Assembly (NCBI RefSeq): GCF_010015585.1 | Contig: NW_022985090.1 | Span: 62,001 to 126,000 of the forward strand | Length of the DNA stretch: 64,000 bases | Direction of reading: 5' to 3' | Origin: Eremomyces bilateralis CBS 781.70 | Taxonomy: Eukaryota; Ascomycota; Dothideomycetes; Eremomycetales; Eremomycetaceae | Shown: positions 8,714 to 35,400 of the stretch, in pieces | Layout of the letters: the number at the start of each line of letters is the position of its first letter | Position numbering within the stretch: the stretch's first letter is position 1 | The notes under the pieces: model-generated | What the model saw: only the letters and a program-made list of their open reading frames with translations | Told to the model about the DNA's origin: nothing | The model's database searches: none | Position numbers and translations under genes: made by a program

Positions 8714-9770
8714 ATGGAGCGCCGACAGAGCATCTTCAAGAACTTGAAAAGCAAGTTCGGGAGCAAGAATTCCAATTCTACCTCACGGCAGGACTCGTTC
8801 GAACCAGCATCATCTCCTACAAGTATGGCTGATCGAAATCCACTGCAAAATCTTTCCCCGGTAACTCGTCGACCTAGTGAGTTCCCATGTCCAAACGATA
8901 CCAACACATCCAATCTAACGCCAATTTAGTCCGTCCTGGCATGAACGCTTTTATCACCCCCTCAAATGAGCCACCGCCAGCATACACCCCCGCCGCGAAC
9001 TCCCAGCCCAACCCCGCCATCGGCACCTCTGCCGCCGCCTCGGACGACACCTACGCCTTCCTCGGCTCCTTCGACACCGTCTTCCTCATCGACGACTCTG
9101 GCTCCATGGCCGGCCGCTCCTGGCGCGAAACCGCCCAGGCCCTCGAGACCATCACACCCATTTGCACCGTGCACGACGCCGACGGGATCGACCTGTACTT
9201 CCTTAACCAGGCAGACAGCCCGTACTACCGGCACGTGCAGTCGGTCGCCACGGTGCGGGAGATCTTCAGCACGGTGCGGCCGCGCGGTGGGACGCCGACG
9301 GGGCAGCGGCTGAATCAGATCTTGCGGCCATATGTGGCACGGTGTGCGAAGAACGTCGACGCGGTGAAGCCGTTGAACGTGATTGTGATCACGGACGGGG
9401 CGCCGAGCGATGATGTGGAGAGCGTGTTGATCAGTGCGGCGAAGAAGTTGGATAAGATGGACGCGCCGGCGTGGCAGGTGGGGGTGCAATTTTTCCAGGT
9501 GGGGAGGGAGCCTGGGGCGAAGGAGCATTTGAAGCAGTTAGATGATGAGTTGGCGGAGTTGGCAGGGGAAGATGATCTGAGGGATATGGTGGATACGGTG
9601 CCGTTTACGGGGGACAACGATGCGCAGCTGACGGGTGATGGGATACTGAAGGTAAGCACAATCACGACCAAGGAACACGCAGCCGCTAATCTAAAATAAA
9701 TCAGGTTGTACTCGGCGCTGTAACTCGTCGGCTAGACCGAAAGCGGTCAAAGGACCTGCATCGTAAGTGA
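8714..9770 (+). CDS. von Willebrand factor A (vWA) domain protein
   Basis: Exons 8714-8876, 8930-9651 and 9705-9770 give 316 residues. After a Ser/Asn-rich, probably disordered N-terminus of about 75 residues there is one vWA domain with a full MIDAS set: DDSGSM (D-x-S-x-S), the Thr in GGTPTG, and the Asp in ITDGAPSDD. Such domains bind a divalent ion and a protein ligand; in fungi this stand-alone intracellular form is common but its partner is not known to me. The C-terminus is basic (TRRLDRKRSKDLHRK). An in-frame ATG at 8639 would add 25 residues; 8714 is chosen because MERRQSIFKNLKSKFG looks like the usual start, but both are possible. The 9652-9704 intron is short and GT..AG. Confidence 0.85.
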
Positions 9771-10339: not shown

Positions 10340-10533
10340 CCACAATAATAACAATGAAAAAGAACACACCAGCTGCGACTTGATCGTAGGACCTCTGTCC
10401 AGCAAAAGGAGAAGGAGCCACCCGGCGAAACCAGGTGACAGGATAATTTTTGAAGCCGAAGCCGTCAAAAGACTTGTGTTGGTCAACTACTTCTCCGAAA
10501 TACAATTCAAGATTTAAAAATATATAATTATCA
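10340..10533 (-). repeat. SINE-like tRNA-related repeat, copy A
   Basis: Read on the minus strand, this copy begins with a TATATATTTTTAAA-type leader, then GGAGAAGTAG followed by an A-box-like segment, a middle with CTTCTCCTTTTGCTGGAC, then CCTACGATCAAGTCGCAG and a tail rich in TTATTGTTATTATTG. The same modules in the same order occur in copies B, C and D. The ends are approximate and no target duplication was found. Confidence 0.6.
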
Positions 10534-10787
10534 AATTTCGTCAAGTGAAAATGCTTTGTTCTGAGCTTCTGGTCGGATCTGCGATCAATCGCTGCGGAGA
10601 GATAGATGACTGGTCAAGGATGGCTGGGCTGACTGCTTCATGTCCGTCTGCCTCAGATCATCGCGCTGAGCCTCCCCGCTCGTAAACGTCAGCTAAACAT
10701 AACAAGTGTGAGCCACTCGTAAGTCTATAGTTAAAGGAGATAATGTACCGGATAATCTGCCCGAGGGCTCTCTTACTTCTCATACCT

Positions 10788-10962
10788 AAACAACAATACT
10801 AACAATAAGAAGCAAGACCACCAACAGTGACTTGATTTTCACTCCCCATCGGCGGAAGGAGAAGTGATCGACCCAACATTGTGCCCCTCTCTCTTCTAAC
10901 CCGAAGTTTTAATTAAACCACTACTTCGAGAGGAAATAGAACCTTTAAAAATATATACCATA
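10788..10962 (-). repeat. SINE-like tRNA-related repeat, copy B
   Basis: This is the most diverged copy. On the minus strand it has TATATATTTTTAAAGG, CGAAGTAGTGG, CTTCTCCTTCCGCCG, AAAATCAAGTCACTGTTGG and a TTATTGTTAGTATTGTTG tail, collinear with copy A about 250 bp away and in the same orientation. Confidence 0.55.
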
Positions 10963-11904
10963 AGCCTGGTCTACAACGTGTCATTTGGTCCGACAAGCAT
11001 GTCTATCAACCACAGGCTTACATAGCTGTTGATTGCCTGCCTGGCTTGAGTACATATTCCTAAGAGTTTCGCTTTCTGGGGGTGAACAGATCGATGGTAC
11101 CTCTGGAGTCTGGGGACTTTGGACTCCTAGCGCCCAGGACAGGCTCTTATAGCCCCTAAAATTGGGGAGGTTGAGAACTGAGACTCCACTTACTTTCCCA
11201 TGACCCGCCCATTTTCGAGGGACTCACTTTTGCCCGTCAGTGGCATAGGAGGATATTCGAAGCGCACCCTTACTTAGGAAGGCCGTGATACATACCTCAG
11301 GTGCAGCAGCAAAAGAAGACGTGTACTGCGCTTCCGTGTCGATTACCAGTAGTTAAGACCAGCTTATAAGCTTCCGCATGTATGTATCGCGAACATCGAC
11401 AAGCTTTCTAAATCTTATAAGATCATGTGAACGTCCGCTTCCTTAACCTGGGCAAGTATATTACTACAAAGAAGTCCGCTAGTTCCGCTTAATCTGAGTT
11501 CCCGATCGTGGTGTCAGACTCACAGTCAGAGCCTTGAACTTTGCTCAGACTTTATCAGCTGGGACTCAGCCGGCAACTGTGCTCCCTGGCCAATATGGCG
11601 TTCCGCTATACCCAATGAAGCCAGCTTCTTTTTTAGCATTCTCCATTAAATATTGACCAATCATATGCCTTAAGGCCAGAGGGCACCAAGTCTAAGAGAT
11701 TTCTGCATAGTTTTGTGTGGATGTGTACAGCATCCTATCATGATATAGGTGAGATAACTTCCATCGTTAAGTGAACTCGATACAGAAGGATTCTCGCTAA
11801 CCTGTTATCAGAAATTGATTCTACGCGTGGACTTCCACATTTCATCAAGTTTTAGGACCAATCCAACCACTACAGTAAAAGAACGCGTTATCTTCCCTTT
11901 CGCT

Positions 11905-13490
11905 ATGCCGACTGCGTCCTCCCTCTCGAGCGAGTTATCCTCTATACCGCCAGATGAGATGCATTTATCATCATCGCCGTCTGCCTCGTCCACATCCTCA
12001 GATTCGACTCCCCGACCAAAACGTCCTTCCCCAAGACGATCCCCTACCAGATATCGGCAGATTCGGCGTGTTGCAGGGAAAAAACGGCTTCAACCATTTG
12101 ACAAATTACGCGAAACATTGTACCTGTGGCGAAAGCAGCGGTTCACATTTAAAGAATTTCTCCGCGCCTGGTTACTATCGGATGAGCACCATGGTTCCTT
12201 GGGGAGGGCTACAAGGGTTGGATTATTCCGTGAACTCTTAGAAGAGGAGGAAATCCGTGAGGTTCTTGGGCATCACCCCTCAAGCCGCCGTAATTGGCAA
12301 CCTCTCCTCAAAGAACTTGATGGCTTGACCGAATACAAATACTTTGACACTTTCGATCCTGATACCGCCCACGAATGGGATATCGACCTTGAAGATGTCC
12401 GAAAAGTTATCAAGACTAGGGCACCAGAATGGTACAGCTGCTTGGATCTAGTTCTTCGAAACTGTCGCAGTCAAGAACCAGATCAAAGGGAGACTCTTTC
12501 AAAGGGGACGATTGGGCAAATGTACACGATGACTGCAGTAGCATGCCGGAGTCGTAAGCGGAACACATCAAGTGTATACGCTAAGAAGCTGGGATTATAT
12601 ATGATCTCTAGTGGGACAAAGCGGCGGGTTGTGGATACAGTTGCTGGTCTCGGGCTTACTGACACTTACCAAAGTATCAATGAGGATATTTCAGATATGG
12701 CGCTCAAGGCGAAGGCAGGTTGATTATACCTTAGGTTAGATATTTTCTTCCTACTTCGCTATTAGAATCGTCCCCCAATGCTAGCCAAAATGCCAAAGGC
12801 AGTTCTTGTTTATAATAACTTCAACTTCAAAGATACATATTGTGCATGAACAGACGATTGGTTCAACTTATATTGTGCGGAATCTGTCAACATGTCTGAT
12901 GAAGGTTTATCCCAATCAAGTTTCGATCCCACCCAACGTCTCTCCTTTAAAGATATCTGCAAAGCCGATGGTTTAAAGTATGATAAGAAAAAGCAGAGTG
13001 TAAACATTCACTTAGTCTACGAGGCCCTACAACACGTTCATTCTACAAGTATTGACTTGGTTTTCCATTCACAGCCGTCTACTGTCCCTTCTTCTGGTAT
13101 CCGGAGATCAACCGTCTACACGCGGGTGGGAATACAACAAACATTCATCATCTTCGGGCTGCCCCTTTTGATGAGGGAACAATCCAAGGAATCTACGGAG
13201 TTCATGAAGATATTTGGATCCGACAGTTGGGTTTCCAATCCCAACCACCATGCGAAGACTTCACAAACCATCTCTCACTGGTATTTGGAGATCAGAAAGT
13301 AGCCCAACATATCCGTACTCTAAAGGAGGCACAGGAGATGGATATTGGGTCCCTCTGAACTATTTCATGTCTTGAATCTAATCCTAACAATCGCCCGTAT
13401 CCATTTTGATATGAAGCCTCCACTACCGTCGGATACAAAGCCTTTAATACCATCAGATGCAACGCTTCTACCGGATATCATCTACTAGGA
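11905..13490 (+). pseudogene. DUF6589-type protein relic
   Basis: An uninterrupted first part (11905-12723, 272 codons from the first ATG) has a Ser/Pro-rich start and then a helical region ending in LYMISSGTKRRVVDTVAGLGL, which resembles the N-terminal segment of DUF6589 proteins common in fungal accessory DNA. About 70 bp further on, AVLVYNNFNFKDTY matches the family's conserved D/N-x-N-F strand, but a stop follows within a few codons. Later pieces (12892-13302, then HIRTLKEAQEMDIGSL and ELFHVLNLILTIARIHF in other frames) continue the same family order. The whole is therefore a relic with several stops and shifts, although part of the first break could be an intron. Function of the family is unknown; it is often found next to mobile elements. 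No terminal repeats were found. Confidence 0.5.
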
Positions 13491-14526
13491 TCGAAAAGGA
13501 TGTACTCGAGATTCCCCCCTAAATAAATCTGAAAGGAAAATGTCCTAGAATTTCTCAGGTTTCTAGAGGGGGTTTTGGAGGTTTTTTCCCCAAGCGCTTC
13601 GCTTTCGTCCCAAACTCACCCCTGGCTTAGCTAATTAGGTGCCTAAATTACTACATAGGCTATCAATCCCTTGCCAGTGGAGCCCATCTTGCACTTGCTC
13701 ACTCCAGTGACTTCATTGGACCTTTCCTTTGCGGCGCGCTCTTCCATTGACAGGACAATCCAGCCGCCTACATTTCCTAAAGGCAAGGCACAGCATCAAT
13801 AGCGACTCTCTCGGCCGTTTAGTAGTAGTCCGGACTACGGACCCAAAACTAGGCTGCTTCAACCTGTCTCTAGGAAGAGGAAGCCGACTACTCTTCCGTA
13901 TCTCCTTTATGTCGATCTGCTTTCTCTAGCATTTAAATTATAGCGGACGATCTACTGGTGCTAAACGGCTTCGAAGAGTAAGTTGTTGATTGGTTTAGAC
14001 GTGTCAATCAATCACGGAAGCAATAGGTTCTCCTGCAGAGGGAGTGAGATGCATGTATTGTGGAAGCTGTGGGATACACCGCAAGGTAGATATACCCGAG
14101 CTTATGTAAGATAAAGAACAAGGAAAGAAATCTTGTGTGATGACTAAGTAATAACCTCTGATTTCCAACATAAGTCGATAGGCTAGTAGACGTCAAGAAG
14201 CGCGAAAGGAGATAACAACTCGTTTAAACTATGAAGTGTTAATGAGAAAATGGCGAGAGTAAGCTCTATGGACATGGTAATGACTAATGAGCACCTGCGG
14301 ACTAGTTAATAGAATCCTTAAGTTACTAACTACCGATATTGAAAGTATCCTGGAACCCTAGAGTGTTATAGTTCCAGGCCCATGGTCTCCTCCCCTTGAA
14401 GTTATAGTCACTTCTTCTTCAGCTTTGCAATATGTACTCTAACTCTGTCTGGCTTGCTTATATTGACCTCTTTCTTCAGCGCTAACATCAACTCAGTTGT
14501 CCGCCGCCAATTCGATGCAGGCTTAG
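13491..14526. other. Repeat-island spacer
   Basis: No gene recognised. Short frames only. Confidence 0.5.
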
Positions 14527-15622
14527 GTGTCCACCACCAGCGGTTTTGCTGTTCAACCCCGAGCGGCCTACCCATCACCATCCCATAGCGACGGGGCCAG
14601 CAGTGTTCCCGATATCAACAAAGCTCAAAATGTCACCTTTCGTCATCCCGGATACCCTGACGGAGCTAATATCCTGCTCATACTACCCGTGCACGATGGC
14701 CCTGGCGGAGGTATTCACCACGACTTTGCGTGGACCGCTTGTGCTGTTGTTGCGAACTGCGCATGGAGGAGTTTCCTGTCCGAGAGGCGAGATGGGCAAA
14801 GCGTTGATGTGGGAAAAGACAGCCTCTTGAAGGAGAGTGATTACTACTTTCGATTAACAGATGATGAGGGTCAAAGTGCGTAGTAGACGCGAGCATATGC
14901 ATCAGGTGCTGATGGCCATCTGTATGGACATTGAGAAGTATCCTATTGTCGTATCCTTCGCCCATTTCAAGTTCCCGCACCGCAACCTTCCGCCATGCTG
15001 GACCTCCGAAGGTCTTCGAATTCCTATATCGAACTACCAATCACGTCCGACCAGCCTCTCAGATATACTTCTAGTGCGCGATAGATCCTGTCGAGTTACC
15101 GACCACTACGAAGGTACTGAAGACGTGCATCTCATCCCGCTCGTCGAGGAACGTTGGTTCAGATCAAACGAAATGTTGAAATGCACTTCTCGCCCGCTTC
15201 CATCGGTCACTTCGGCTGACGACCCTCGCAACTCTCTACTACTGCGCTCCGATCTACACTCTACCTTCGACGCGAAACGCTAGGTCGTGGTCCCGAAGGC
15301 AGAAACCTGGGTAGTCCACGTGCTAGATCCTAGCCCATCAAGGCAGTTTTTAAGCTTATACCACAACGTGACGTTGCAGCTGCTCGAGGACGTGTCGGTT
15401 GAGTATTTGTTCGCACGATTTGCTTCGACGATCTTGACCCAACTCGCATTTACTGGTTTTGCTGGGCGACGGAATCTAGTTATTGTAGACATGGAAGACC
15501 AGTCGAGTAATATCGAGGAGCTCACGGGCGAACAGTGGGCAGGGCTCTTCCCTCTTCGAACGAGGAGCAGGAGCCAGAGTCCTACAAAGAGAGCGGTAGG
15601 AAGTAGCAGAAGAGGATCTTAA
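14527..15622 (+). pseudogene. Fungal HNH-endonuclease-domain protein, broken
   Basis: Three adjoining segments match the usual order of fungal HNH_2-type proteins. First comes an N-terminal domain (VTFRHPGYPD, ILLILPVHDGPGGGIHH, ACAVVAN) at 14527-14880. Next is the core (LVEERWF, DDPRNSLLLRSDLHSTFDAKR), which contains the Asn and His of the HNH motif, at about 15100-15280. Last is the C-terminal part (WVVHVL, LYHNVTLQLL, SVEYLFARFA, GRRNLVIVD). An in-frame TAG sits at 15281-15283 directly after FDAKR, where an aromatic residue is expected. The first and second segments are in different frames around 14865, and no ATG fits the start. It should have been a metal-dependent nuclease; its cellular target is unknown in fungi. 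Surrounding DNA is transposon-rich. Confidence 0.6.
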
Positions 15623-17600
15623 CGAAGAAGAATAGCCCGAGCCCCGGGGTTGAAGGAGAAAGAGGAGTTTGAAGCTTTCTACTCCCACTTGGTCATCTAG
15701 GGAGGATGCTTTCACGACGGAAGTCGAAGCAGTATAGGGACAAGTACGGAAGAATTGTCTCTCGAAAAGAAGACGACTTTTACAGCAAGAGCCTAGAACG
15801 ACTGGAACACCCGGCGAGAGTGTGGATAAGGAGATCTTGGATACATAGCCGAAATAACGGCCAGTGGAATGAGTACTTTGAGTGAACGTGAGTATCTCCC
15901 GAAGATGGTAGTAGCACATTCAATCCGAAGATCGAACAGTTAACTTCGCACAGTGAATGACAATATGCCCGCTCATCCGTACTAAATGTCCTATAGAGCT
16001 ACGTATGATCAACTGTCGTAATAAGAATGAAAATGAACGGAAGGAAGGAGTAAAAATAAAATCTCCTTCGTGCAGCGGCGAGGACCCTTGTCAACCCCCA
16101 AAAGGAGGCTCGCTCGGGGGCGTAATTAGTTGACCGAAAAGGTCACCCTCGCCGCATAGGACAGAATAGTGGGATTTGTGAAGTCCCGAGTACCCGGAGA
16201 AAGGCTTATACAAACCTAATTAAGCACGTGGACGCACAAATCATCAGTAGCGTATTGGAAGACATTTTCTCCGGAATTACTCCCCAACCTTGCCGATCCT
16301 ACCACCAAGAGATTAAGAGCACTCTCCAAACAAAATCACCGTCCGGGTAAATACCCCCTTGCATCTCAGCACAAGTCATATATTGTGTGGAAACCCTTCA
16401 GGCATTGACCAACAGTGAAAGTGGTCAGTCGGTCCACCATTTCATGTTGCAGGGAGAAGGGTAATATGAGCCCTTTGGTCGTTAAATATCCATCTACGCC
16501 CATAAAAACAAGGTAATTCCTCTCCTGTTATAGCGGCGTTCTGGTAGCAGAAGGCGCCTACGTTTTGAAGGAGTAGAGCGTTATCATTTTGTGTCTAACA
16601 TTCTGCCATAATGCTCACAGTATTGGCCAAGCACGGCTGGAATAAAAGCAAGGAGAAAGTTTGTTATATTGAATTTTAAGTGTTCTTTTAGCTCAATTAT
16701 TTCCATGCCGAAGTTCTTTTACTATCCATACAGTACTTTTGAGATGTGCGGGCTGATCAAATTTGAAGCCCTGGTCAAAATCTGAACACCCTGCGTATCT
16801 ATTTATACAAATTGACTAACACTCAGGAGCTCTCGGTACATATCTTCCTGCCTAAGGAATGAGGAACATCATTTAATAGATCATCTTGCAATTCCTGAAG
16901 CAACGGCCCTATTGGTTGCGAGAGAAACTAGCGTTAGAACCACCGACCGATTCGCGCACCCAGGAAGCGTTCGAGTAACGTAGCAGCCGAAAGAAAGAAT
17001 ATTGGGAGTTATGGTGGCGGTCAATGTTGAGAAATTTACCTGAGAGAAATGGACCTGAGGAGAGGTTTGAGTTAGAGAGATTGATTTGAGGTAAGGTTGG
17101 AGTGCAAGAAGTATAGCGGGGAGGCGGGTGTACGAGAATTCCATAACCGTTTCGCTGCCGATCTCTTACGACTCGAACTTGCTCTCAATAAAGTCCAAGA
17201 TGTCCTCTATAGCTTACGAGGGCTGCGATGAGATTAAGGGAAGGGATCCGCTTAGGGCAAGTCATCTCGAGAAGTAGTGATTAATCAGTCGAATCAGTTG
17301 GATCACTAACTAAAGGTTCCCTACCCTGTTACACATTACGACGGCTACACTACAGCAAAACCAAGCTTATGTCACCTATACTAATTCAATTACGAATTCT
17401 GCAGCGGATAAGGTGATACATTTCATTCAAGGATATCACCAACGAGAAAATGCAGCTCGTTATCCCGTTAAATGTCGAGGCTTGAAGAGGGGGTTGCAAA
17501 CCAAGAGAAAGTTATAACTGAAATAGATCTAAGCGATCACAGGGTAAGAATTGCCATGCTACATCAAGTTCGAATGATCTTATAATAGTATAGTTCCGTC
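15623..17600. other. Repeat-island spacer with a strong nested hairpin
   Basis: No protein gene recognised. A nested inverted repeat at 16044-16155 is listed separately. Several short repeats of unclear nature are present. Confidence 0.5.
16044..16155. other. Nested hairpin (possible structured RNA or cruciform)
   Basis: First a perfect 7-bp stem, GAAGGAG (16044-16050) with CTCCTTC (16063-16069). Then a second, nested structure: GCGGCGAGG (16075-16083) pairs with CCTCGCCGC (16147-16155), GTCAAC (16090-16095) with GTTGAC (16129-16134), and CCCCC with GGGGG inside. The three stems are in register, which is unlikely by chance. No open reading frame covers it. Confidence 0.45.
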
Positions 17601-17834
17601 TGTTATGGTCCCAGGCCTGCGGCCTGTTCCCTTGGTTGTGGCTGAAGAGGTGGCTGGTGGATTATGGTATATCAGAGAAGCAAACAAACATGGTAACACA
17701 GCATTAGGGCAATGGAGAGGAGAGTCGCTATCTCGCGCACAAAGGAGCCGGGAGATTTCTTCTCTCCCTCTCTCTCTTCAGTTTAGATTAATGGAACTTG
17801 GTAATCGCAGACCTTGCGCATCCAGACCGTGTCA
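17601..17834. mobile_element. Solo LTR, copy 1 (LTR retrotransposon fossil)
   Basis: A 234-bp unit that begins TGTTATGG and ends GTGTCA (TG..CA termini) is flanked on both sides by the 5-bp direct repeat CCGTC (17596-17600 and 17835-17839). A second unit, about 95% identical by eye, lies at 22425-22654 with its own different 5-bp repeat. Each copy having its own target duplication shows two independent insertions, each later reduced to a solo LTR, not the two ends of one element. The superfamily (Copia or Gypsy) cannot be told without internal sequence. Moderately young by divergence. Confidence 0.75.
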
Positions 17835-18179
17835 CCGTCGAAGACTAGAAGGAAATGATTTACGCTGCGATTATCCCTTGGTTGTACCTAAGCTGTTGCC
17901 CAATTTAGAAACCGACCATAATTTCTAGCCACTTCTTGCTTTGTTTCTTCGTAATCGGTTCTTCGCAATCGGTTCTTCATCCGAATTTACAGCGGGGATT
18001 TCCTGCTGGAGCATTTACTCGAGCAGGCCAGAGTCGTTCAATGGCCCTCCGATATCATCTGCTTTCCGCTTTCCAATTGCCCTCTTAGTCCGAAATTCGG
18101 ATATTGGTTGAACTCGCTTAGACGATCGTTGATGTTCACGCTATTTTAACCCAACGTTGCACAGACGAGGTGTGTAATG

Positions 18180-19072
18180 CTTCCCATGCATACGCTACAA
18201 GTGATCGCAAAAGGGTTATATTCCATCTTGAATCATTGGCTCGCAATCAGGAACTGGGCATTGACGAACTTGATCGAGGTGGCCCAGAGGTAAATGCTCA
18301 GCCTTGAATTGTGCTGTTAGAGTGTGACATTTCGAATATTACAACGGACGCCCAGTCGGATCGCAGAGGACGCATATAGGGCGTTCGGTGCCTCGATGGC
18401 CAGCAGGAGTATAGTGTTTGCCGTGCTGACGCTGCAAATGAGTAAAACGGAGATACGCCAGCGCCAACGGTCAAACCGTAGTCAGGAACTGGGCATTTAT
18501 GTCCTTTGTCTAGGTGACTATGTCGCAAATGTGTGACCAGAAAGTGTCTCATGAGAGACAAATGTTGTGAGAAAGATACAACTCTACCAGTCGGATCGCA
18601 AAGGACGCAAATAGACCGAGGACATGGATCTGGAGCGTTTCGGTCATGCCCCTTGCTTTTCTTCAAAAGGCGGGAATAGCTAGCCAGTAACTCAATAAAT
18701 GGAGCCTGACCTTCTTCATTAACGGGTGCTGCATCAACGAAGATGTCGCTGTTCGAAATCGGCGACTCGATAATAGTGATATGGCCACCTATCGCCCCGT
18801 GTATGTTGCACATTGCCAAAGTATTTCTCCCGCTTCTCTCGAATAACGAAGTCGGATAACCGGTCCAGTAAGTGGCGCTGTACCTTCTTATTGTCCTGGA
18901 GATCTTTGATATCTCGTCTCTCAAGAAGCTTTTTAAACTGTTCTTCATTCATGTGGCATGGGGCAATAGACGTAGAGAAAGAACTTTTGATGCTTGGAGC
19001 GTTGTGGGGAACTTCCATTGCTGCGTGTTTTTGCTTTTGGGACTTTTGGCCATATCTTTTTGACTGGAACAA
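18180..19072 (-). pseudogene. DUF3435/FluG-type zinc-finger C-terminus relic (tyrosine-recombinase-like gene family)
   Basis: The minus strand first encodes a basic helical segment (RHLLDRLSDFVIREKREKYF) like the region following the recombinase core in fungal DUF3435 proteins. Then come two tandem finger units of the same type: CVLCDPTGRVVSF..LMRHF..H..HLDKGHKCPVPDY, and about 235 bp further CVLCDPTGR..FKAEHL..HLDQVRQCPVPDC. The second unit lies in another frame and contains a stop. DUF3435 proteins include the captains of Starship transposons, which are tyrosine recombinases. Only the C-terminal part is here and no recombinase core (R..HxxR..Y) was found, so it is a fragment. The duplicated fingers explain the repeated CAGTCGGATCGCA blocks at 18353 and 18588. 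An origin from another C2H2 family is possible. Confidence 0.45.
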
Positions 19073-19153
19073 TAAAGAGGAAGGAGATTGAAAGCACCGA
19101 TCCGGACTTGATCGTCTGACTCCGGACTGGCAAAAAGAGAAGTGTAGTGCACC

Positions 19154-21985
19154 TAGGGATGTGTAAAGTGCGAAAAGTAAGGACCTTACCGTAAACTAGC
19201 CCTAGATTTCTGGAAAGGTTATTTTTTACCTTACATGACGGTATTATGCGCTAGCTTAATATGGTTAGTGTATTTTTTGTATCAATAGCACGCTAGTCGT
19301 ATATAGTTAGTAACAACGATTCTACCAAGGCCCCAAACTCCAAACCACCGTCATTTCTATCTACGATATCTTCACAAAACGACGTTTAATCTTAATATAC
19401 AATACATTTCTATAATGCCCTGATCAAAGGCTACAAAGCAATATTTATATCACATGAAAAAGTCTATGTTCTACTCACTTCAAACTGTCGCGTCTTCTTG
19501 TCAACTGTCGAGCCGAAAGATGATGCACGTTGCCTTGGGCAACGAGCTGGAATATTTGATGCATTTTCTGCCGCCGCCCATAGCCGTACGAAACCTAACT
19601 TATTATTATTATTATTTACATGAGCAGATTGCTCTCGATGAGCTGTATAATTTGATATGGATAAGACAATATCTAGACTAGGTTTTCGTTGGTTACGGGT
19701 ATGCCATTGCGTTGAGCATGAAAGTGCTCAACTTCTTGAATAAGTTTGTGGCCACTTTATTCATCAACTACAGAACTCAAAATAATTTCACCAAACATCG
19801 ATCAATTCGTACTTTTTTTACATCAAATTATTCGTCTTGATAAGCTCTACTACTCCATCTATTCAAATGCCCCCTAAAGATCGTCTTGTCTGGAAATATT
19901 TCGAGGAGCGCCCTGAGCTTGGCATACCGAAGCAAAAGTATTGTACACTTTGCAATAGATACAGCTGTCAATCGAACACCACCAGAGAACGCACACATCT
20001 CGTTACTATTTGCAAGGAAAATATGGAGGCAAAGGAATCAGAGAACAGAGGAAAGGATGAGATACAGAGAAAGAGGCCTCTTTCTCCAAATGAAGATGCT
20101 TCGCCTATTGTCAAAATACCCAGGCAAACGACGCTGACAGCAAACGGTATTACCTACCGTACGCAGGGCGAGAGACTGCAGGAGAGAATCGAGGCTCTTC
20201 TAACGCGGTTCATCGTGATGTCTGGATCTCCATTTTCACTTGTTGAAAACAGCGATTTCCAGAGTTTTATCAAGATACTCGATCCTGCCTTCAAACTCCC
20301 TAATCGCGAACGCCTCAGTGGTGAGCTCCTCGCCGACCTATATCACAAAACATCGCTTCAAGTCCAACACGTTATCGACCATCGACGCGACCATTTCAGC
20401 CTCAATTTCTGTCTGGACGAGTCGAATAACCAACAGAACGATCGCGTCTTGAACTTCTCCGTTGTCCATCCCGACTTTGGATCGCTTACACTCCATACAA
20501 GACCTGTCGATGCGCAAGCCTCCTTGACTGGGGAATTCTATTACGAATACTTCCGCTCGGTGGTAAAACCGGTGGTGAAAGGAGATTACAAGCGGATCAA
20601 CAGTATCTCGACGGATACCTGCAAGACAATGAGGAAGTTCTGGAAACTCTGTCAAAATGATGAAGAGCTATCGCATATCATCTGTGTACCTTGTCAATCT
20701 CACAGTTTAAACCTCCTCATTGGCGATATCATCAAGATGGACCATTTCCGCGATCATTTCACCACTTTCAAGAATCTCGTCCGCGACCTCTCGTCCTCAA
20801 ACAAAACCATCGGTGAGATTAAAAAGATACAGCAAGAGAACGGACGGAAATATATCGCTTTTGCTTCAGCGGTAGAGACGCGATGGGGAAGTCATATCGC
20901 GATGCTGAAATCGCTGCAGGCGAACAGAGATCCTATACAAGAATTCTTTTTCTCGCGATTACCTCTGCTTACCGGTGATGCGATTAAGAAGCTGAAACCG
21001 TACCGCGATGAGATTCTGGCCCCTGGTCTGTGGAATGAGCTTGATCGGACTCTCCACGTCCTTGATCCTATCACCAAGGCTCTGAAAAAGACGGAATCAT
21101 CTCGATTAGACATTGGGCGTGTCGTAAAGCTCTGGAACGACCTTAGGAAAGAGGTTGAGTCTGCAGGAATCCGGTTTGGTATGGATGCCTTCGCAGCGAA
21201 GCTCCTCGCGGTGTTTGATAAGCGATATCAAGACCAGCTGGATGTCTCATTTCACCACCTCGCGTTTTATATCCATCCAGAGTTTAGGAAAGAGCCTCTC
21301 CAAGCTGATTCGCTCGATCACATCAAAAGCACGATCCAGGATCTATTTTTTCCAGAGGAGGAAGATGTCCAGGCCTGCCTTGATGAGATTATGCTATTCA
21401 AGTCTTCATCGGGCATCTTTGCATCAAATAAGGACCTAGCGAAGCGAGTTGGTGATCCTGAGGGATACTGGAGGTTTGCGGAGGCTCTCCTTCATAGCAG
21501 TCGTATCGCTTCTATCGCTGCCCGCATCTTTTCAGCTCCAACGAGCTCAGTTCCATCTGAACGAGCGTTTTCTATTCAGAATCTCACGATGAGTGCGAAG
21601 CGCTCACGATTGGATCCAGAGAGATGTAATAAAATGATGTACATCTATATGAATAGGCGATCGATGGACGCGATGAAGCAGGAGCGAAAAGAACGCGGTG
21701 TATCGCAGATTGAGATGGAGGATCTCCTCCTCCAAATTGAGGAGGAAATCGGGCTGCGATATCACGCATTTGACGATGTCTAAATAGCTTCATAACTTCC
21801 TACTTCAGCGTGTTTTGAGTCTGAGATCTCCATCACTTATGGTTGTCTGTGAACATCATCAACCCGAGGTCGTATTACAAATTTGTATGGTAATGTGGGC
21901 CGGTAAAGTAAAAAATCTATAATACCGCCAAGACCCGTAATTACGGGCAATCTATCTTTCATACATCTTACATTACACACCCCTA
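19154..21985 (+). mobile_element. Complete hAT-superfamily DNA transposon
   Basis: The element is 2832 bp. Its termini are imperfect inverted repeats, TAGGGATGTGTAA on the left and TTACACACCCCTA on the right. It is flanked by a perfect 8-bp target site duplication, AGTGCACC (19146-19153 and 21986-21993), the hallmark length for hAT. It carries one uninterrupted transposase gene on the plus strand. The perfect duplication and open frame suggest a recent insertion, and the element looks structurally autonomous. It sits inside copy C of the SINE-like repeat. Confidence 0.92.
19867..21783 (+). CDS. hAT transposase with BED zinc finger
   Basis: Single exon, 638 residues from the first ATG. Residues 1-50 form a BED-type zinc finger (VWKYFEE, YCTLCN, then a His/Cys pair in RTHLVTIC). 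The catalytic core shows the usual hAT acidic positions in FCLDES and ISTDTC. It also has the CxxH-like CQSHSLNLLI segment, the RW motif in ETRWGSHIAML and the Glu in SSVPSERAFS. The C-terminal dimerisation domain (SIAARIFSAPTSSVPSERAFSI, then NKMMYIYMN) is complete. The enzyme would cut and paste the surrounding element using the terminal repeats. No stop or frame change is seen, which stands out because nearly every other accessory gene in this window is damaged. Confidence 0.93.
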   Translation: MPPKDRLVWKYFEERPELGIPKQKYCTLCNRYSCQSNTTRERTHLVTICKENMEAKESENRGKDEIQRKRPLSPNEDASPIVKIPRQTTLTANGITYRTQGERLQERIEALLTRFIVMSGSPFSLVENSDFQSFIKILDPAFKLPNRERLSGELLADLYHKTSLQVQHVIDHRRDHFSLNFCLDESNNQQNDRVLNFSVVHPDFGSLTLHTRPVDAQASLTGEFYYEYFRSVVKPVVKGDYKRINSISTDTCKTMRKFWKLCQNDEELSHIICVPCQSHSLNLLIGDIIKMDHFRDHFTTFKNLVRDLSSSNKTIGEIKKIQQENGRKYIAFASAVETRWGSHIAMLKSLQANRDPIQEFFFSRLPLLTGDAIKKLKPYRDEILAPGLWNELDRTLHVLDPITKALKKTESSRLDIGRVVKLWNDLRKEVESAGIRFGMDAFAAKLLAVFDKRYQDQLDVSFHHLAFYIHPEFRKEPLQADSLDHIKSTIQDLFFPEEEDVQACLDEIMLFKSSSGIFASNKDLAKRVGDPEGYWRFAEALLHSSRIASIAARIFSAPTSSVPSERAFSIQNLTMSAKRSRLDPERCNKMMYIYMNRRSMDAMKQERKERGVSQIEMEDLLLQIEEEIGLRYHAFDDV

Positions 21986-22111
21986 AGTGCACCCAATGGG
22001 CAGCCCACAATCTTTGCTTCAAGGCAACGCTGATTTAGTAGCTACTTCTCCGACATTAATTGCAAGTTTCAAAAATATATAATACTCCAAAGTTCGGAAA
22101 TGCAATTAAAA

Positions 22112-22270
22112 ATTGACAATAACGACCCTACCGCGACTCGATCCGACCCCGACTCGATCGTGGGGCGTTTCACTAACAAAAAGAGAAGAGGCCCGCCCAA
22201 TGGACGATCCGTTCAGCTGTTGAGCTACTTCTCTGAACACAAATCGAAATTTCAAGAACATATACTCCGT
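22112..22270 (-). repeat. SINE-like tRNA-related repeat, copy D
   Basis: About 24 bp from copy C, same orientation (tandem pair). It has the best internal promoter of the four: TAGCTCAACAG matches the Pol III A box, and CACGATCGAGTCGGGG plus GGATCGAGTCG resemble B boxes about 85 bp further on. It keeps the leader (GTATATGTTCTTGAAATTTC), CCATTGGGCGGGC, TTCTCTTTTTG and a TTATTGTC end. Confidence 0.6.
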
Positions 22271-22424
22271 AACACCAGTCATTAAACTGGTTGCCTAGCC
22301 CATGTAACTTCATTCTTCCTTCAGTGGACTGTGGAATAAATCTACTGCGGAGACTAGGAAGGCGATAGATGGTATTGCCGCCGCATGCTTGACTCTTACT
22401 ATGAATCATTCTATTTCTGGGTTT

Positions 22425-22654
22425 TGTTATGGAACAGGCCTGCGGCCTGTTCCCTTGGTTGTGGCTGAAGACGTGGCTGGTGGATTATATCAGAGAAGCA
22501 AACAAACATGGTAACACAGCATTAGGGCATTGGAGAGGAGAGTCGCTATCTCGCGCACAAAGGTGCCGGGAGATTCCTTATCTCTCTCTCTCTCTCTTCA
22601 GTTTAGATTAATGGAACTTGGTAATCGCAGACCTTGCGCATCCAGTCCGTGTCA
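22425..22654. mobile_element. Solo LTR, copy 2 (LTR retrotransposon fossil)
   Basis: A 230-bp unit, TGTTATGG to GTGTCA, is flanked by the 5-bp direct repeat GGTTT (22420-22424 and 22655-22659). Near its 5' end is a perfect 10-bp inverted repeat with a 3-base loop (GGAACAGGCC, TGC, GGCCTGTTCC). It is the sister of copy 1 at 17601-17834. Confidence 0.75.
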
Positions 22655-22994: not shown

Positions 22995-24134
22995 CTACGG
23001 CGGATTCCCCCCTTGCACCCGCTGAAAGTCCCTCGGATTATACTGATACCCCCCAACCCTCCCCCCCATCGCCTCCATCTCCTTCGCCCGCGCCCCTCCG
23101 TCCCCCTCTTCCCTCGCCTCCCCCACTGCCGGCAATTCCGCCGCGTACCCCTTATGATCCCCAGGTAGCCCCGGCGACCGGAACCCGCTCGTGTCCGACG
23201 AATACGACGTCGGGCGCGAGCTGCCCTGGCTGTGTGGGTCCGCCCATTGCGGGTCGGGCGAGCCGTGGGAGTATTCGGAGAGCTGTGCGGAGTGGCGTGG
23301 GTGGCCGGGGGAGGGTTTCGGGGTGTCGAGGGAGGCAGGGGAGGGGTGCGGGTAGTCGCCGGGGAGTTCCATGGGTTGGATGACTGGGGGGACGGGTTTA
23401 TAGTCGGGGTATTGGGCGTAATGCTGGTCTGGGGGGTGTTGGGAGAGGATGTTTTGCTGCGGGCGTTGGTACTGTAGACGCGGCGATTGCAAGGTCGCGG
23501 CGGCGATGACTGGCGACATTGGCCCGGCGGTATCGGATCGGTCGGCGGGATTGATGGTTTTCAGTTTCCCGTTCTCCATCATCGCGATCAGCGTGCCCGA
23601 GTCGATCAGCTCCGCCTTCTTCACCAGCCGGTCCACCAGCACCTTCGACGCCGCCTTCAGCTGCGCCTTGACGAACGACACCAGCGTGATGTTACACCGG
23701 ATCTCGATGTCCTCCCGCAGATACAGCCCCTCCGCCGGCGCGCCGATGCCCATCTCGCGCGTCTGCGACGGCTCGCCCGGCTGGGTGCCTGCGATGCGCC
23801 AATTGTTGCGTAGGTCGACGCTCATGGGAGCAAGGATGTGGGTTTGCAGGCCCCACGGCATGTCGTGGAAGCACCCCTTGAAGGTGATCTGGCCAGAGCC
23901 CATCTTCCCGAGGCCGGGCACGAACTGCACGCGCTCGGCGATCTCGTACCAGGTGGCGTAGAACTCATCGGCTTCGGCATTGCGGGGGGGCTTGGTTGGC
24001 TGGTGGCCGGTGACGAGCGGGTTGAGGGTGATGATCTCGCTGTGGGAGTGGAGGATGTCGATGGCGAGTTGGCGGGGAATGTGGGAGGGGATCGGGGTGA
24101 TGTTGGTGTAGACATCCTTCTTTCGTAGAACCAT
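22995..24134 (-). CDS. DUF7053 domain protein
   Basis: One exon, 379 residues. Residues 1-185 form the fungal DUF7053 domain: it starts with KKDVYTNITPIPSHIPRQ and contains HSHSEIITLNPLV, FKGCFHDMPWGLQTHI and IRCNITLVSFVKAQLK. The rest is a Pro/Gln/Ser-rich tail with many Tyr and Pro, probably disordered. The domain is conserved across Pezizomycotina and has no assigned function; its fold is sometimes compared with START/SRPBCC lipid-binding barrels, which I infer only from memory. No signal peptide or membrane segment. It is adjacent to and in the same direction as the 955-residue coiled-coil gene, with about 1 kb between them. Confidence 0.85.
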   Translation of the reverse strand: MVLRKKDVYTNITPIPSHIPRQLAIDILHSHSEIITLNPLVTGHQPTKPPRNAEADEFYATWYEIAERVQFVPGLGKMGSGQITFKGCFHDMPWGLQTHILAPMSVDLRNNWRIAGTQPGEPSQTREMGIGAPAEGLYLREDIEIRCNITLVSFVKAQLKAASKVLVDRLVKKAELIDSGTLIAMMENGKLKTINPADRSDTAGPMSPVIAAATLQSPRLQYQRPQQNILSQHPPDQHYAQYPDYKPVPPVIQPMELPGDYPHPSPASLDTPKPSPGHPRHSAQLSEYSHGSPDPQWADPHSQGSSRPTSYSSDTSGFRSPGLPGDHKGYAAELPAVGEAREEGDGGARAKEMEAMGGRVGGYQYNPRDFQRVQGGNPP

Positions 24135-25099
24135 GGTCGCGGATCGGTTTCGTCGAAGGTGCTGTTGAAACTTGAACCCTGAGCCCCAGACTGTGGAGAA
24201 GTGATCCCTTGTTCAGCCTTATCGACTCGTCTGGTAGTTCCCGCAGCGTCGGTCCCGCCAAATGCTATCTCGATGTTTTCAACGCGAAGAAGATCCGTTC
24301 TGATTCCAGGGAAAATCGTCGTTCAGCGCAAAGTCAGCTACAAAAAGGCAAAAGATCAGAAACAGGGGATGGCTCAACATTGGATCAATAAGCAATAAGC
24401 ATAAAATCTAGGTCGCTCCAAGTGCTGACACCACGTGATGTCATTATCAGCTCCAACTGCTAACAAATGTTGGACGGAGATATACGATCCGCGGTGGCAT
24501 GCCAGTTTCTGCTTGCCTGGTGGAACTAAGGGAACTGCGCCGCCACAAGACGCAAGCACAAGACGCAAGCGCCTGGATCTGCCACCCGAATAACAACGAG
24601 CCTCTGATATGGTGATTGGCAGCATATATATGCTAACATCACGCTCGTTAATGCAGTACTGACTAGTACCTAGGGAACAGTGCCCTTCTGAGATACCCAA
24701 CCGTCACCAGGCAGCAAACCCATGCAGTTTCATATATGAATAGTATATATAGAAGTATTCCACAGGCCAATCTATCATTCCAAATGCCGACCATGAACAG
24801 GGGCCAGGAAAGCAAAGGGGGTATCCCATGCCTCGTACATAACTATCCGAGCGAGTGACCTTCAGCTTGTTGATCCACCAAGCCAGATTTCATCCGCAAC
24901 GTGCTCTCTCGTCCTCTAAAAACCATCTAACCTTAGAAATAAAATTCCATCGTATCTCATCCATGTAATATCCTCGTTCCTTCCCCGGTAATCGCCGCCT
25001 CGGGTCATACCTCATAAAACACCTAGATTCTCACCGTCCTTCAAATCATCCGATATCTGCAGTCATCGCTACCCACCGCCACCCCCCCACCGGAACCCC
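24135..25099. other. Promoter of the DUF7053 gene and 3' flank of the next gene
   Basis: No coding signal. Both neighbours read on the minus strand. Confidence 0.55.
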
Positions 25100-31658: not shown

Positions 31659-32415
31659 ATGCCAGGTCCGTACCGAAAGCACTTCATCCCCCTTGAATCC
31701 GACCCGGAAGTGTTCACCCGTCTCCTGCATAAGCTGGGCATCTCACCGGACCTCCGATTCCAGGAAATCTATGCGATCGACGAACCTGATCAGCTACCAC
31801 ACCCAGCCTTAGCGCTTGTCTTCATTTTCCCTGCGCCAGCGGCCTACGAGGTTCAAAAAGCAAAGGAGGATTCTGGATCGAGCGAATATGCCGGAGGTGA
31901 TGACCAGGATGTAATGTGGTTCAAGCAAACAATCCATAACGCGTGTGGATTCTACGCTCTGCTCCATTCCGTCTGCAACGGACCTGCTAAGGCATATATC
32001 CGTAAGTTATGGTGGGGATTTGAAAATCCACATAACTAAACCAAACCCAGAGCCAGGAACCCTTTTAGGAAGGCTCATGGATACTTGCCGATCGTTGGGG
32101 ACGGAAGACCGCATCCGTGTGCTGGAAGATTCTAAAGAGCTTGAGACTATCTATGCAGAGGCTGCTAGAGAAGGGGGCACTCCAGTGCCGGGTGCTGAAG
32201 AAGAGGTGGACTCCCATTACATCTGCTTTGTCAAGTCCACCGGAAATTCTCATCTATATGAGCTCGATGGGGACCGAAAGGGTCCAGTCGACAAAGGCTT
32301 CGTGGAAGCGGATGATGTGTTGGCCGAAGAAAGCCTAAATGTTGTCAAACAGTATATGCAGGATGCTGGTCTTGGTCACGGTCTCATGGCCCTGGTAAGC
32401 GACAGCGCAAGGTGA
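31659..32415 (+). CDS. Ubiquitin C-terminal hydrolase, UCH-L3/Yuh1 type
   Basis: Exons 31659-32001 and 32051-32415 (49-bp intron) give 235 residues, the normal length for a single-domain UCH. The full catalytic set is present: oxyanion Gln90 in FKQTIHN, nucleophile Cys96 in HNACGF, His170 in DSHYICF and Asp187 in YELDG, almost the same numbering as human UCHL3 (Q89/C95/H169/D184). The crossover loop lies between about 150 and 168 and is Glu-rich. The enzyme removes small adducts from the ubiquitin C-terminus and can process NEDD8/Rub1 in fungi. It is intact although set between damaged genes, so it is a housekeeping island within the accessory block. Start chosen because MPGPYRKHFIPLESDPEVF is the usual N-terminus. 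Confidence 0.93.
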
Positions 32416-35400
32416 TTAGCAGAAGAGATTCTCGTGAGTCATCTGTCGTCCGGTAGGTGCGGCCTGAAATGAGCATAGTTGCAAAGGATACAAATGATAT
32501 TCCCCATGCCTTCAACGCCACCCAGACTGTTCGCCGCCTGTTCTGAAAGTTTGAGGACAAGTTCCGGAATCCGCGTCCAGCACCAAGGATATTTAAGCCA
32601 AAGCAGAGGATGGCATGAGTGGCATCAGAATCAAACTAAGGCTACCTCCGCGGGCCTGACGTTTGTGGGAATATAAGTACTTTGATGGACCCACTGGTTT
32701 GCTGCTCTTCTTCGCTCCTCATTCATCTATCATCCAGACTCTATCCCCTTCGTGGCCCGACAGGCTCCAAATATTTGGGCACCGCAATCCCTATTGGCCA
32801 TGAAGGGGATATATACATGATTCTATACACACAAGATTCTACACACCCTCATACAAAAATTCTATATACACCACACCTCGACCACTAACCGGCTGCGGAA
32901 GCACCTTCGTCGTACGTTCACCAACGGGATCTGCCAACGTTGTGGGACGAAGTAGACAGCGCTTAGAACGAGAGGTGAATATATATTATCTTTTCCAATA
33001 GCCAAATGAGTGCTAATCCAGTCGAGTCCCATCATTTTCGTCCACTCGAAATGGGTCAACCCCTCATTTTGGTATATCGTCAGCTTGGGATGCCAACCAT
33101 TGCTCCTGGCGCTAGAATGAGGAGGCAGACACCCGCGACGAACCGAACTTTTCGATCTGGATTTATATAATGACTATTACCTGCCCGCATAGATGAGTGT
33201 ATGAATCCTTCAATTCACTCAAGAGATCCCCCGGTGGTTTGCAGAATCACATCATTCACACATCATTCACTGAATCACTGACAGGATATATTGCCTTCCT
33301 TCTACCGTTGCTGGCGCTACTGGGTCGCCTCATATGGCGGCCAGAAGGCGGAAAGAGAGATGCGTTATCCGGACCAGAAGGCATTCTCGAATACCCAGCT
33401 CCAAAGCATGGGAGTGGCGAAAGACGACCACTCTATCCCTAAGCTTAAGGTGGTGGACCAAAAATCTTATTACATGCATCGGATGTCGTATTTGCTAACA
33501 ACGGAACACTCCCGGCGGATAAGCGGGAGGTGAATCATCTGTGCGGCAACAAACGCAATCGAGTTTTTCCACGAACCAAAAAATCTACAGACCTGATAGA
33601 ATCGGATGAGTCAGGGGGCGGAGATTGGTGTGGTGGCCGAAGAAAGGATATATATCGTCAAACGGTATGTGTAGAGGTCTTATTCATGGCCCCATGGCAC
33701 TGAAAGGAACCCTCGAGGCTCGGCTTGATATTGTGGAGGCGATAGAACGTGTAGAGTAAGGAGTGTAGGCGGTTTGTGAGCAGGTTGACCACCGCCTGCA
33801 CTGCCTGCTCTACCAGTGCTGACGCCTCCACCATATCAAGTCGAGCCTTGAGAATTTGACCAAGAATTTGGTCGATCAAAACGGCGGGTAGGGATGGAGC
33901 GAGGGTACGATCACCATCTAACTTGGTTGTCTATTTCCATCATACCTCCGCTGTGGTGGTTCGAACCCTAGCTGGATTCCGCGGAGCCCTTTTGATCGAC
34001 CAAATCATCAGCCAAATCCTCGAGGTTCGACTAGCTCAGCTTCCTAGTACAAAACAATCGCACATCTAAGAAGCCGATAACTAGACCGGATTTCAGGGTC
34101 GAATGTATCCCAGGGACCACTGTTCGAAAGCTTCAGCTCGGATTGGTAGACACCTAACGTAACCTAGAGTACATTAGTGTTGCATCGGCTGTTTCTTTTG
34201 GAGTCAGTTACATGTCACTTGGATCGCAGATATCCACTTTACCTAGCTACTCCCCGATGTAGATAGAGACACCAAGGGGGCTGGTTAAGGAATCTCCCAT
34301 AATTCCTACGAGTCCATGGAATGGGATACTATCTATCCATCCTCACCCAGGTGTTTGTGTCCAAGCCTGGTAGAATGAGGCACAGGGTATTTCATCTGAA
34401 GGGCATCTTGGTCATTGATGTGATACATCGAACAGCGGCCCCAGACACTGAGGGATATTCGCCAACCTTGCAGCTATACGTCCGCGTATTGTATCAGGAC
34501 ATATCGGCAACCAATTAAGTTCATTAGTGCGACTGCGGTCGGTGCTAGAAAGCGTTAGCACAGAATTTTTTTTCTAGGAGCTGGTTCGTCAATGTCTATC
34601 GGCACTGAACTGACTGTTTCAACATTCAAGATATCGTGTTTCCCTTGCACAATCATGACGATCAGATTTTGGGCTCAAAGATTACCTCAACGCAGAACAT
34701 CGTAGGTGTTTGGTTCAGAAGTGTGCGACCACATATCCGGGGCATGATAGTTTTATCGATTATATAAAGAGAGTCGTTGGGATCTTGTAAAGGACTCCGA
34801 AGTCGAGGTGCACATTCGATGAGAGGTGAGATTTTCGCATTATTAGACATGTACTAGTAACTGAAGGGGCCGAGGCCGAGGTGGTAATATATTTACCGTG
34901 TCTGAATTCTGAATACGATACTATATGTTGGAGTATCGCGTGACTTCCAGGAGACTCCATGATTTCGCCGCTCATTCATTTCATATGCAGTCGCGCCCCT
35001 TGTCGACGTCTTCGGATCTTCAATCTTTTGCCTTAGCAAAATGATAGTTCTCACCTTTAGCGGCTCTGTTCGGATCATCCTACTTGGAGGCTCCTGTCTG
35101 CCTCAGCGTTAGCAGACGTGTTGTGGTGGCGACCATGGCACTTAGGAGATCTTGAAGCTCACTACTTACCCGAGCCGAGCATGCTTGTTTTGCTCACAGC
35201 TCCCAGTTCTTCGTCGCGTTAGGAAACTTCAGGGATCAATCCTTTGTTGGACATCCATGTCGCATGCGTTCAACCATAGAATATTAGTGCTGAAATGCTC
35301 ACGAGGCAACAATCAATTCCGTACTCTTCCAGTCAGGTGGACACGGCCTGCACATTTGCTTAGTACACGGTTTCGATTAAACCGGCTTAGGCGATCCATG

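Follow-up and report, generated by a model that had tools for sequence, protein, structure and literature searches.

A window of 64,000 nucleotides from the dothideomycete Eremomyces bilateralis CBS 781.70 (contig NW_022985090.1, positions 62,001 to 126,000 of the forward strand, renumbered here from 1) contains four minus-strand copies, A to D, of a short repeat, with a hAT transposon inserted into copy C. A sequence-only reading of this stretch had taken the copies for a family resembling short interspersed nuclear elements (SINEs), with a transfer RNA (tRNA)-style promoter. The repeat family is genuine, and four segments carrying shared modules in a common order were recovered where that reading had placed them; the comparisons described below, however, point away from a SINE. 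The copies are probably an undescribed, locally duplicated family of hairpin RNAs made by RNA polymerase III (Pol III) from a promoter of the SNR6/U6 type. A literature search in open-access papers returned no description of the four-copy family.

Copy D (22112..22269) is the most intact, with its TATA module (TATATGTTCTTGAA) at 22251-22264, a predicted RNA of 57 nt at 22178-22234 that includes a T5 run (22178-22182), and two B-box-like sites, at 22151-22159 and 22135-22143. Copy A (10340..10533) has its TATA module at 10513-10526, a predicted RNA of 93 nt at 10404-10496, and a B-box-like site at 10377-10385. Copy B (10785..10962), which is probably decayed, retains an exact TATA 14-mer at 10944-10957. 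Copy C is in two parts: a 5′ part (21994..22086), with the TATA module at 22068-22081 and a predicted RNA start near 22051, and a 3′ part (19064..19153), with one strand of the closing stem, a T5 run at 19132-19136, a B-box-like site at 19105-19113, and TTATTGTT. Between them, on the plus strand, lies the hAT transposon (19154..21985), with ends TAGGGATGTGTAA and TTACACACCCCTA and an open frame at 19786-21780 (665 codons, stop to stop) that matches Dimer_Tnp_hAT and DUF659. The 8-bp target duplication AGTGCACC is identical on the two sides (19146-19153 and 21986-21993), which bears out the earlier description of copy C as split by a hAT element; the element is apparently young.

From 5′ to 3′, the copies carry the TATA module and, 30 bp from its start, GGAGAAGTAGCT; an interval that varies in length separates these from CTTCTCYTTTTG, after which come 17 bp, GATCRAGTC, and a tail of the TTATTGT type. 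The full set is present with small changes in A, C, and D, with two constant spacings—30 nt from TATA to stem and 17 nt from TTTTG to B-box—while copy B deviates in the stem, T-run, and B-box. Pairwise identity among the copies is 51-59% (four-copy alignment A1) and is confined to blocks, the interior being unalignable. The combined pattern CTTCTCYTTTTG-N17-GATCRAGTC, searched in the window with up to three mismatches allowed, matched three times (A, C, and D), each without a mismatch, against a mean of 0.00 matches in 100 dinucleotide-shuffled windows. A model built from the four copies (R1) recovered all four from the window (C as two halves) and nothing more to an E value of 10, as expected by construction. 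The module order given in the sequence-only reading stood, but several details did not: copy B begins near 10785 and shows no T4 run from 60 to ~270 bp beyond its TATA module, with AATCAAGTC in place of GATC; CCCATTGGG is exact in C only, reads TCCATTGGG in D, and is degenerate in A and B; and the full TTATTGTTATTATTG tail is found in A only, B having it with one change and C and D having the shorter TTATTGT. That reading had passed over the GGAGAAG/CTTCTCY complementarity and the fixed spacings, as well as the nature of the leader, a TATA box in the position it has at U6. The TTATTGT-type motif occurs ~20-30 bp beyond the B-box in all four copies; the 160 bp that follow U6 showed no such motif.

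The TATA module connects the copies to U6. In a search of both strands of the genome (26.63 Mb in 62 contigs), the exact 14-mer TATATATTTTTRAA was found four times, in copies A, B, and C and 30 bp before the genome's one U6 match, against expected counts of 0.18, 0.30, and 0.52 under Markov models of orders 1, 2, and 3 built from 186 kb of sequence; the reversed pattern, used as a control, had no match. The 30 bp directly before the U6 match read TATATATTTTTAAAAACTTCAAATTAAGTT, with TATATATTTTTGAAACTTGCAATTAATGTC as the copy C counterpart, and the distance from TATA start to stem in A, C, and D, 30 bp, is likewise that from TATA start to the U6 match. When 146 other TATATA 30-mers, drawn from fetched DNA that included 30 tRNA loci, were aligned to the U6 30-mer, none equaled copy A or C and one equaled copy B or D; the two best lie upstream of the tRNA genes L045 and L056. 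The TATA modules at L045 and L056 are U6-like and read TATATATATGAAAACCTTGCAATT and TATATATTTTAGACTGCAATT.

The resemblance extends beyond the TATA module. In yeast SNR6, an upstream TATA box and an intragenic A-box are combined with a B-box beyond the terminator (sections of PMC9136082 and PMC11346459), and both SNR6 and the U6 gene of the present genome are like the copies in having TATA at -30, a T-run (short in A and absent from B), and a B-box past the terminator. The E. bilateralis U6 gene, moreover, has a TATA module nearly as in the copies and a GATC-type B-box, GATCAATTC, 25 bp after the start of the T-run; the corresponding distances of GATCRAGTC are 22 (A), 23 (C), and 23 bp (D). 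The B-box core is GATC in U6, A, C, and D, and GTTC in 27 of 27 distinct tRNAs (30 loci, out of 42 tRNA matches). Many tRNA genes of this genome have intron-like inserts. Measured from the terminator, the B-box lies at ~20 bp in the copies and U6 here, as against ~120 in yeast (according to a portion of PMC1796607). T-runs are T5 in C and D, T4 in A, and absent in B; the candidate terminator shared by C and D, TCTTTTTG, stands at the first T-run of 8 of the 30 tRNA loci (counted by hand), more often than any other context, and T5 is the first T-run in 16 of the 30. In A, C, and D, TAGCT or TAGTT at about +8 was noted by eye as a putative A-box. As judged from these motifs, the copies have an SNR6-type Pol III layout, with TATA at -30, a candidate T-run terminator, and a B-box beyond it. 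The earlier notion of a tRNA-style promoter holds insofar as the copies have parts like those of a Pol III promoter, one of them a B-box-like site, but these parts are laid out as in U6 and not as in a tRNA gene. A TATA box ~30 bp before the start would also fit RNA polymerase II, with the copies being promoters of duplicated small protein genes; this explanation is scarcely credible, as the exact 14-mer occurs elsewhere only at U6 and the T-run and B-box lie at U6-like distances.

Taken together, the TATA distance and the T-run predict RNAs of 93 nt (A), 80 nt (C minus the insert), and 57 nt (D), which would be closed by the 7-base complementarity between GGAGAAG and CTTCTCY. In A, C, and D this stem pairs at seven of seven positions (G-U allowed), the first pair varying between G-C, G-U, and A-U; of 10684 sampled stretches that end at a T-run, 15 have a seven-of-seven stem. 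The predicted folds of A (z of -4.58, with none of 200 shuffles as good) and D (z of -2.37, two of 200 as good) are better than those of shuffled sequences; D folds as a single hairpin, and A and C are multi-branched. Unlike the U6 gene, the copies would encode hairpins of 57-93 nt, in four local copies, that are not U6: across the window, Rfam gave no match at gathering score. At E values up to 10, one weak Rfam match (TtnuCD16, 13.3 bits, gathering score 75) was obtained at 10739-10789, touching the end of copy B, and none in 21990-22300, the loose-threshold search having left the 3′ half of copy C outside its range. ARAGORN found no tRNA gene in the window. Small nucleolar RNAs were also considered and rejected: a C box, with one mismatch allowed, is absent from all four copies, and CTGA is present in D only; for the H/ACA class, all four copies contain ANANNA and ACA words, yet no ACA lies near the 3′ end.

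A sub-case of the Pol III reading is that the transcripts are precursors of microRNA-like small RNAs (milRNAs), as in Neurospora. Neurospora milRNA loci made by Pol III resemble the copies in having TATA-like elements and poly-T and in being mostly intergenic, and milR-1 is described, in the relevant portion of the source, as a Pol III product with TATA-like elements and no predicted A or B box (PMC3547838). Copy D, with its single predicted hairpin, would suit such a precursor, whereas the predicted multi-branched folds of A and C are not long hairpins; we consider this role unlikely for the family.

The question of a SINE turns on the distribution of the copies, their flanks, and the position of the promoter. 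Searches of the genome with DNA queries A and B and with several module patterns found no convincing copy beyond C24:72340-84270, although these searches are insensitive—the patterns are stringent, the DNA search lacks sensitivity at 55% identity, query A misses B, C, and D, query B misses the others, and diverged copies may escape. Apart from U6, all genome matches exceeding their control fall in that interval. With up to three mismatches, one pattern gave 69 matches against 47 in the reversed control, the exact ones being A, C, and D and the next best having two mismatches; a second gave three matches (A, C, and D) against none in the control. A TATA-type pattern gave 64 matches against 55 in the control; six of the 64 are A, B, C, D, U6, and window positions 12817-12839. 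When 20 of the 58 other TATA-type matches were inspected together with 12817-12839, no B-box-like word was found in any of them at 40-180 bp downstream of where the TATA starts; among the 20, one had such a word at 183 bp and two at 15 and 25 bp. Model R1 found nothing to an E value of 10 in 31 further loci (121,945 bases, ~0.5% of the genome; locus L024 has 35 N), and in 21 loci picked for a TATA-like word its best match was U6 (21.8 bits, E value of 0.022), the next reaching 14.7 bits. Two exact-pattern scans of viral contigs, a collection not expected to include fungi, returned nothing.

The flanks of the copies show no direct repeat above chance: the longest words common to the two flanks are 5-6 bp, at chance level in all four copies and matched by 36-79% of 300 random pairs. 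The dispersed copies with target duplications for which the sequence-only reading had proposed a genome-wide search were thus not convincingly found. That the copies might be parts of a longer segmental duplication, another possibility raised there, was rejected, since a self-BLAST of the window (E value of 1e-3) joined only one pair of segments from the copies, 10487-10540 and 22042-22096; a repeat detected in the same comparison (17601-17834 / 22425-22654) falls outside the copies. This direct repeat is ~230 bp long and 93% identical, its arms flank copies C and D, and it contains the palindromic word CAGGCCTGCGGCCTG; it is separate from the RNA family.

A low-copy SINE family would fit the length of the copies (~160-195 bp), the Pol III boxes, and the T-rich tail. 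AfuSINE2, AfuSINE3, Foxy, and MgSINE are likewise short with Pol III promoter parts, and SINEs of Aspergillus fumigatus are very low-copy, ranging from single to about five (per the section of PMC5063351 concerned). The present copies nevertheless differ from these four families, from which they are set apart by description, in showing neither dispersal nor target duplications above chance and in having promoter parts outside the predicted transcript; all four lie on one strand within 12 kb. A retroposed copy would not be expected to carry a TATA box at -30 and a B-box past the T-run, both of which lie outside the predicted transcript, whose ends are themselves set by inference. Copy number, flanks, and promoter position thus disfavor a SINE, which we regard as very improbable, and the position of the TATA and B-box suggests instead that the copies arose by DNA duplication.

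Several observations weigh against a family of Pol III hairpin RNAs with a U6-type promoter. The B-boxes are weak by a matrix trained on 27 distinct tRNAs (4.8 and 7.9 for the two sites in D, 5.9 in C, 2.8 in A, and -4.5 in B), although U6, at 8.2, also scores below the tRNAs (10.9-18.3). The A-box is convincing in D only, and that by eye against the consensus; copy A has only a T4 run, which is the first run in none of the 30 tRNA loci; and the TATA module of copy D differs from the 14-mer at two places. A single variable pair in the closing stem makes covariation thin, and the folds of C (z of -1.19, with 23 of 200 shuffles as good) and B (z of -0.24, 77 of 200) are little or no better than those of shuffled sequences. 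Finally, U6-like TATA modules also stand before two tRNA genes, and the modules therefore mark Pol III genes more broadly. What the sequence comparison supports is that the TATA module is a mark of Pol III genes and that its exact form is a mark of U6 and the four-copy family.

The state of the individual copies could also be taken to indicate that a Pol III gene was duplicated and that the duplicates have decayed and now serve no role: B is without a terminator, C is broken by the hAT element, and A has T4 only. Against an overall identity of 51-59%, however, A, C, and D share nearly identical stem strands and B-box, and A, B, and C carry the TATA 14-mer unchanged, a selectivity not expected of neutral decay. 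On balance, decay of the whole family appears rather doubtful.

Other features of the window include an HNH_2 endonuclease domain match in the open frame 14861-15283, between the A/B and C/D pairs. On either side of the region with the four copies lie a VWA-domain gene (8881-9696) and a DUF7053 gene (22998-24212). A protein match to fungal Zn2Cys6 stayed under its cut-off. An imperfect palindrome of 141 bp (33712-33852) is 76% identical to its own reverse complement; near it, 32313-32394 and 33626-33702 are alike, as are 33839-33885 and the reverse complement of 33986-34032.

Under the proposed Pol III model, TBP/TFIIIB bound to the TATATATTTTT module would set the start 30 bp downstream, at GGAGAAG, and TFIIIC would use the weak A-box at about +8 (TAGCT) together with the B-box ~20 bp beyond the terminator. 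The RNA would end in the T-run directly after CTTCTC, and pairing of GGAGAAG with CTTCTCY would give an RNA of 57-93 nt, closed like a tRNA acceptor stem around a variable interior, which could serve as a stable structured RNA or as a small-RNA precursor. The copies may have spread by old local DNA duplication, and the local cluster may have evolved by gene birth and death. In copy D no part is missing and TATA has two changes, and in copy A an exact TATA and a GATC B-box are combined with a short T-run; D and perhaps A would be usable. Copy C has all parts and is interrupted by the hAT element, and copy B, with an exact TATA, no T-run, and a degenerate B-box, would have decayed.

Vertebrate vault RNA and Y RNA genes form small local clusters whose Pol III RNAs combine a terminal stem and a T-run with a variable interior. 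The copies, likened to these by such general features, differ in having the B-box outside the transcript. By this analogy, they might, tentatively, be a fast-evolving fungal Pol III hairpin RNA family with a vault/Y-RNA-like organization, a TATA module exact elsewhere only at U6, a tRNA-like 5′ end and closing stem, and a B-box outside the transcript.

In the literature found, the combination of an upstream TATA with a B-box past the terminator is described, among fungal Pol III genes, for U6 (SNR6). If the proposed reading is true, the copies would be a second, non-U6 family with such a promoter, and thus a new small RNA to seek, and as natural variants they could show which promoter parts are needed. 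Short low-copy fungal repeats with Pol III boxes, then, need not be SINEs.

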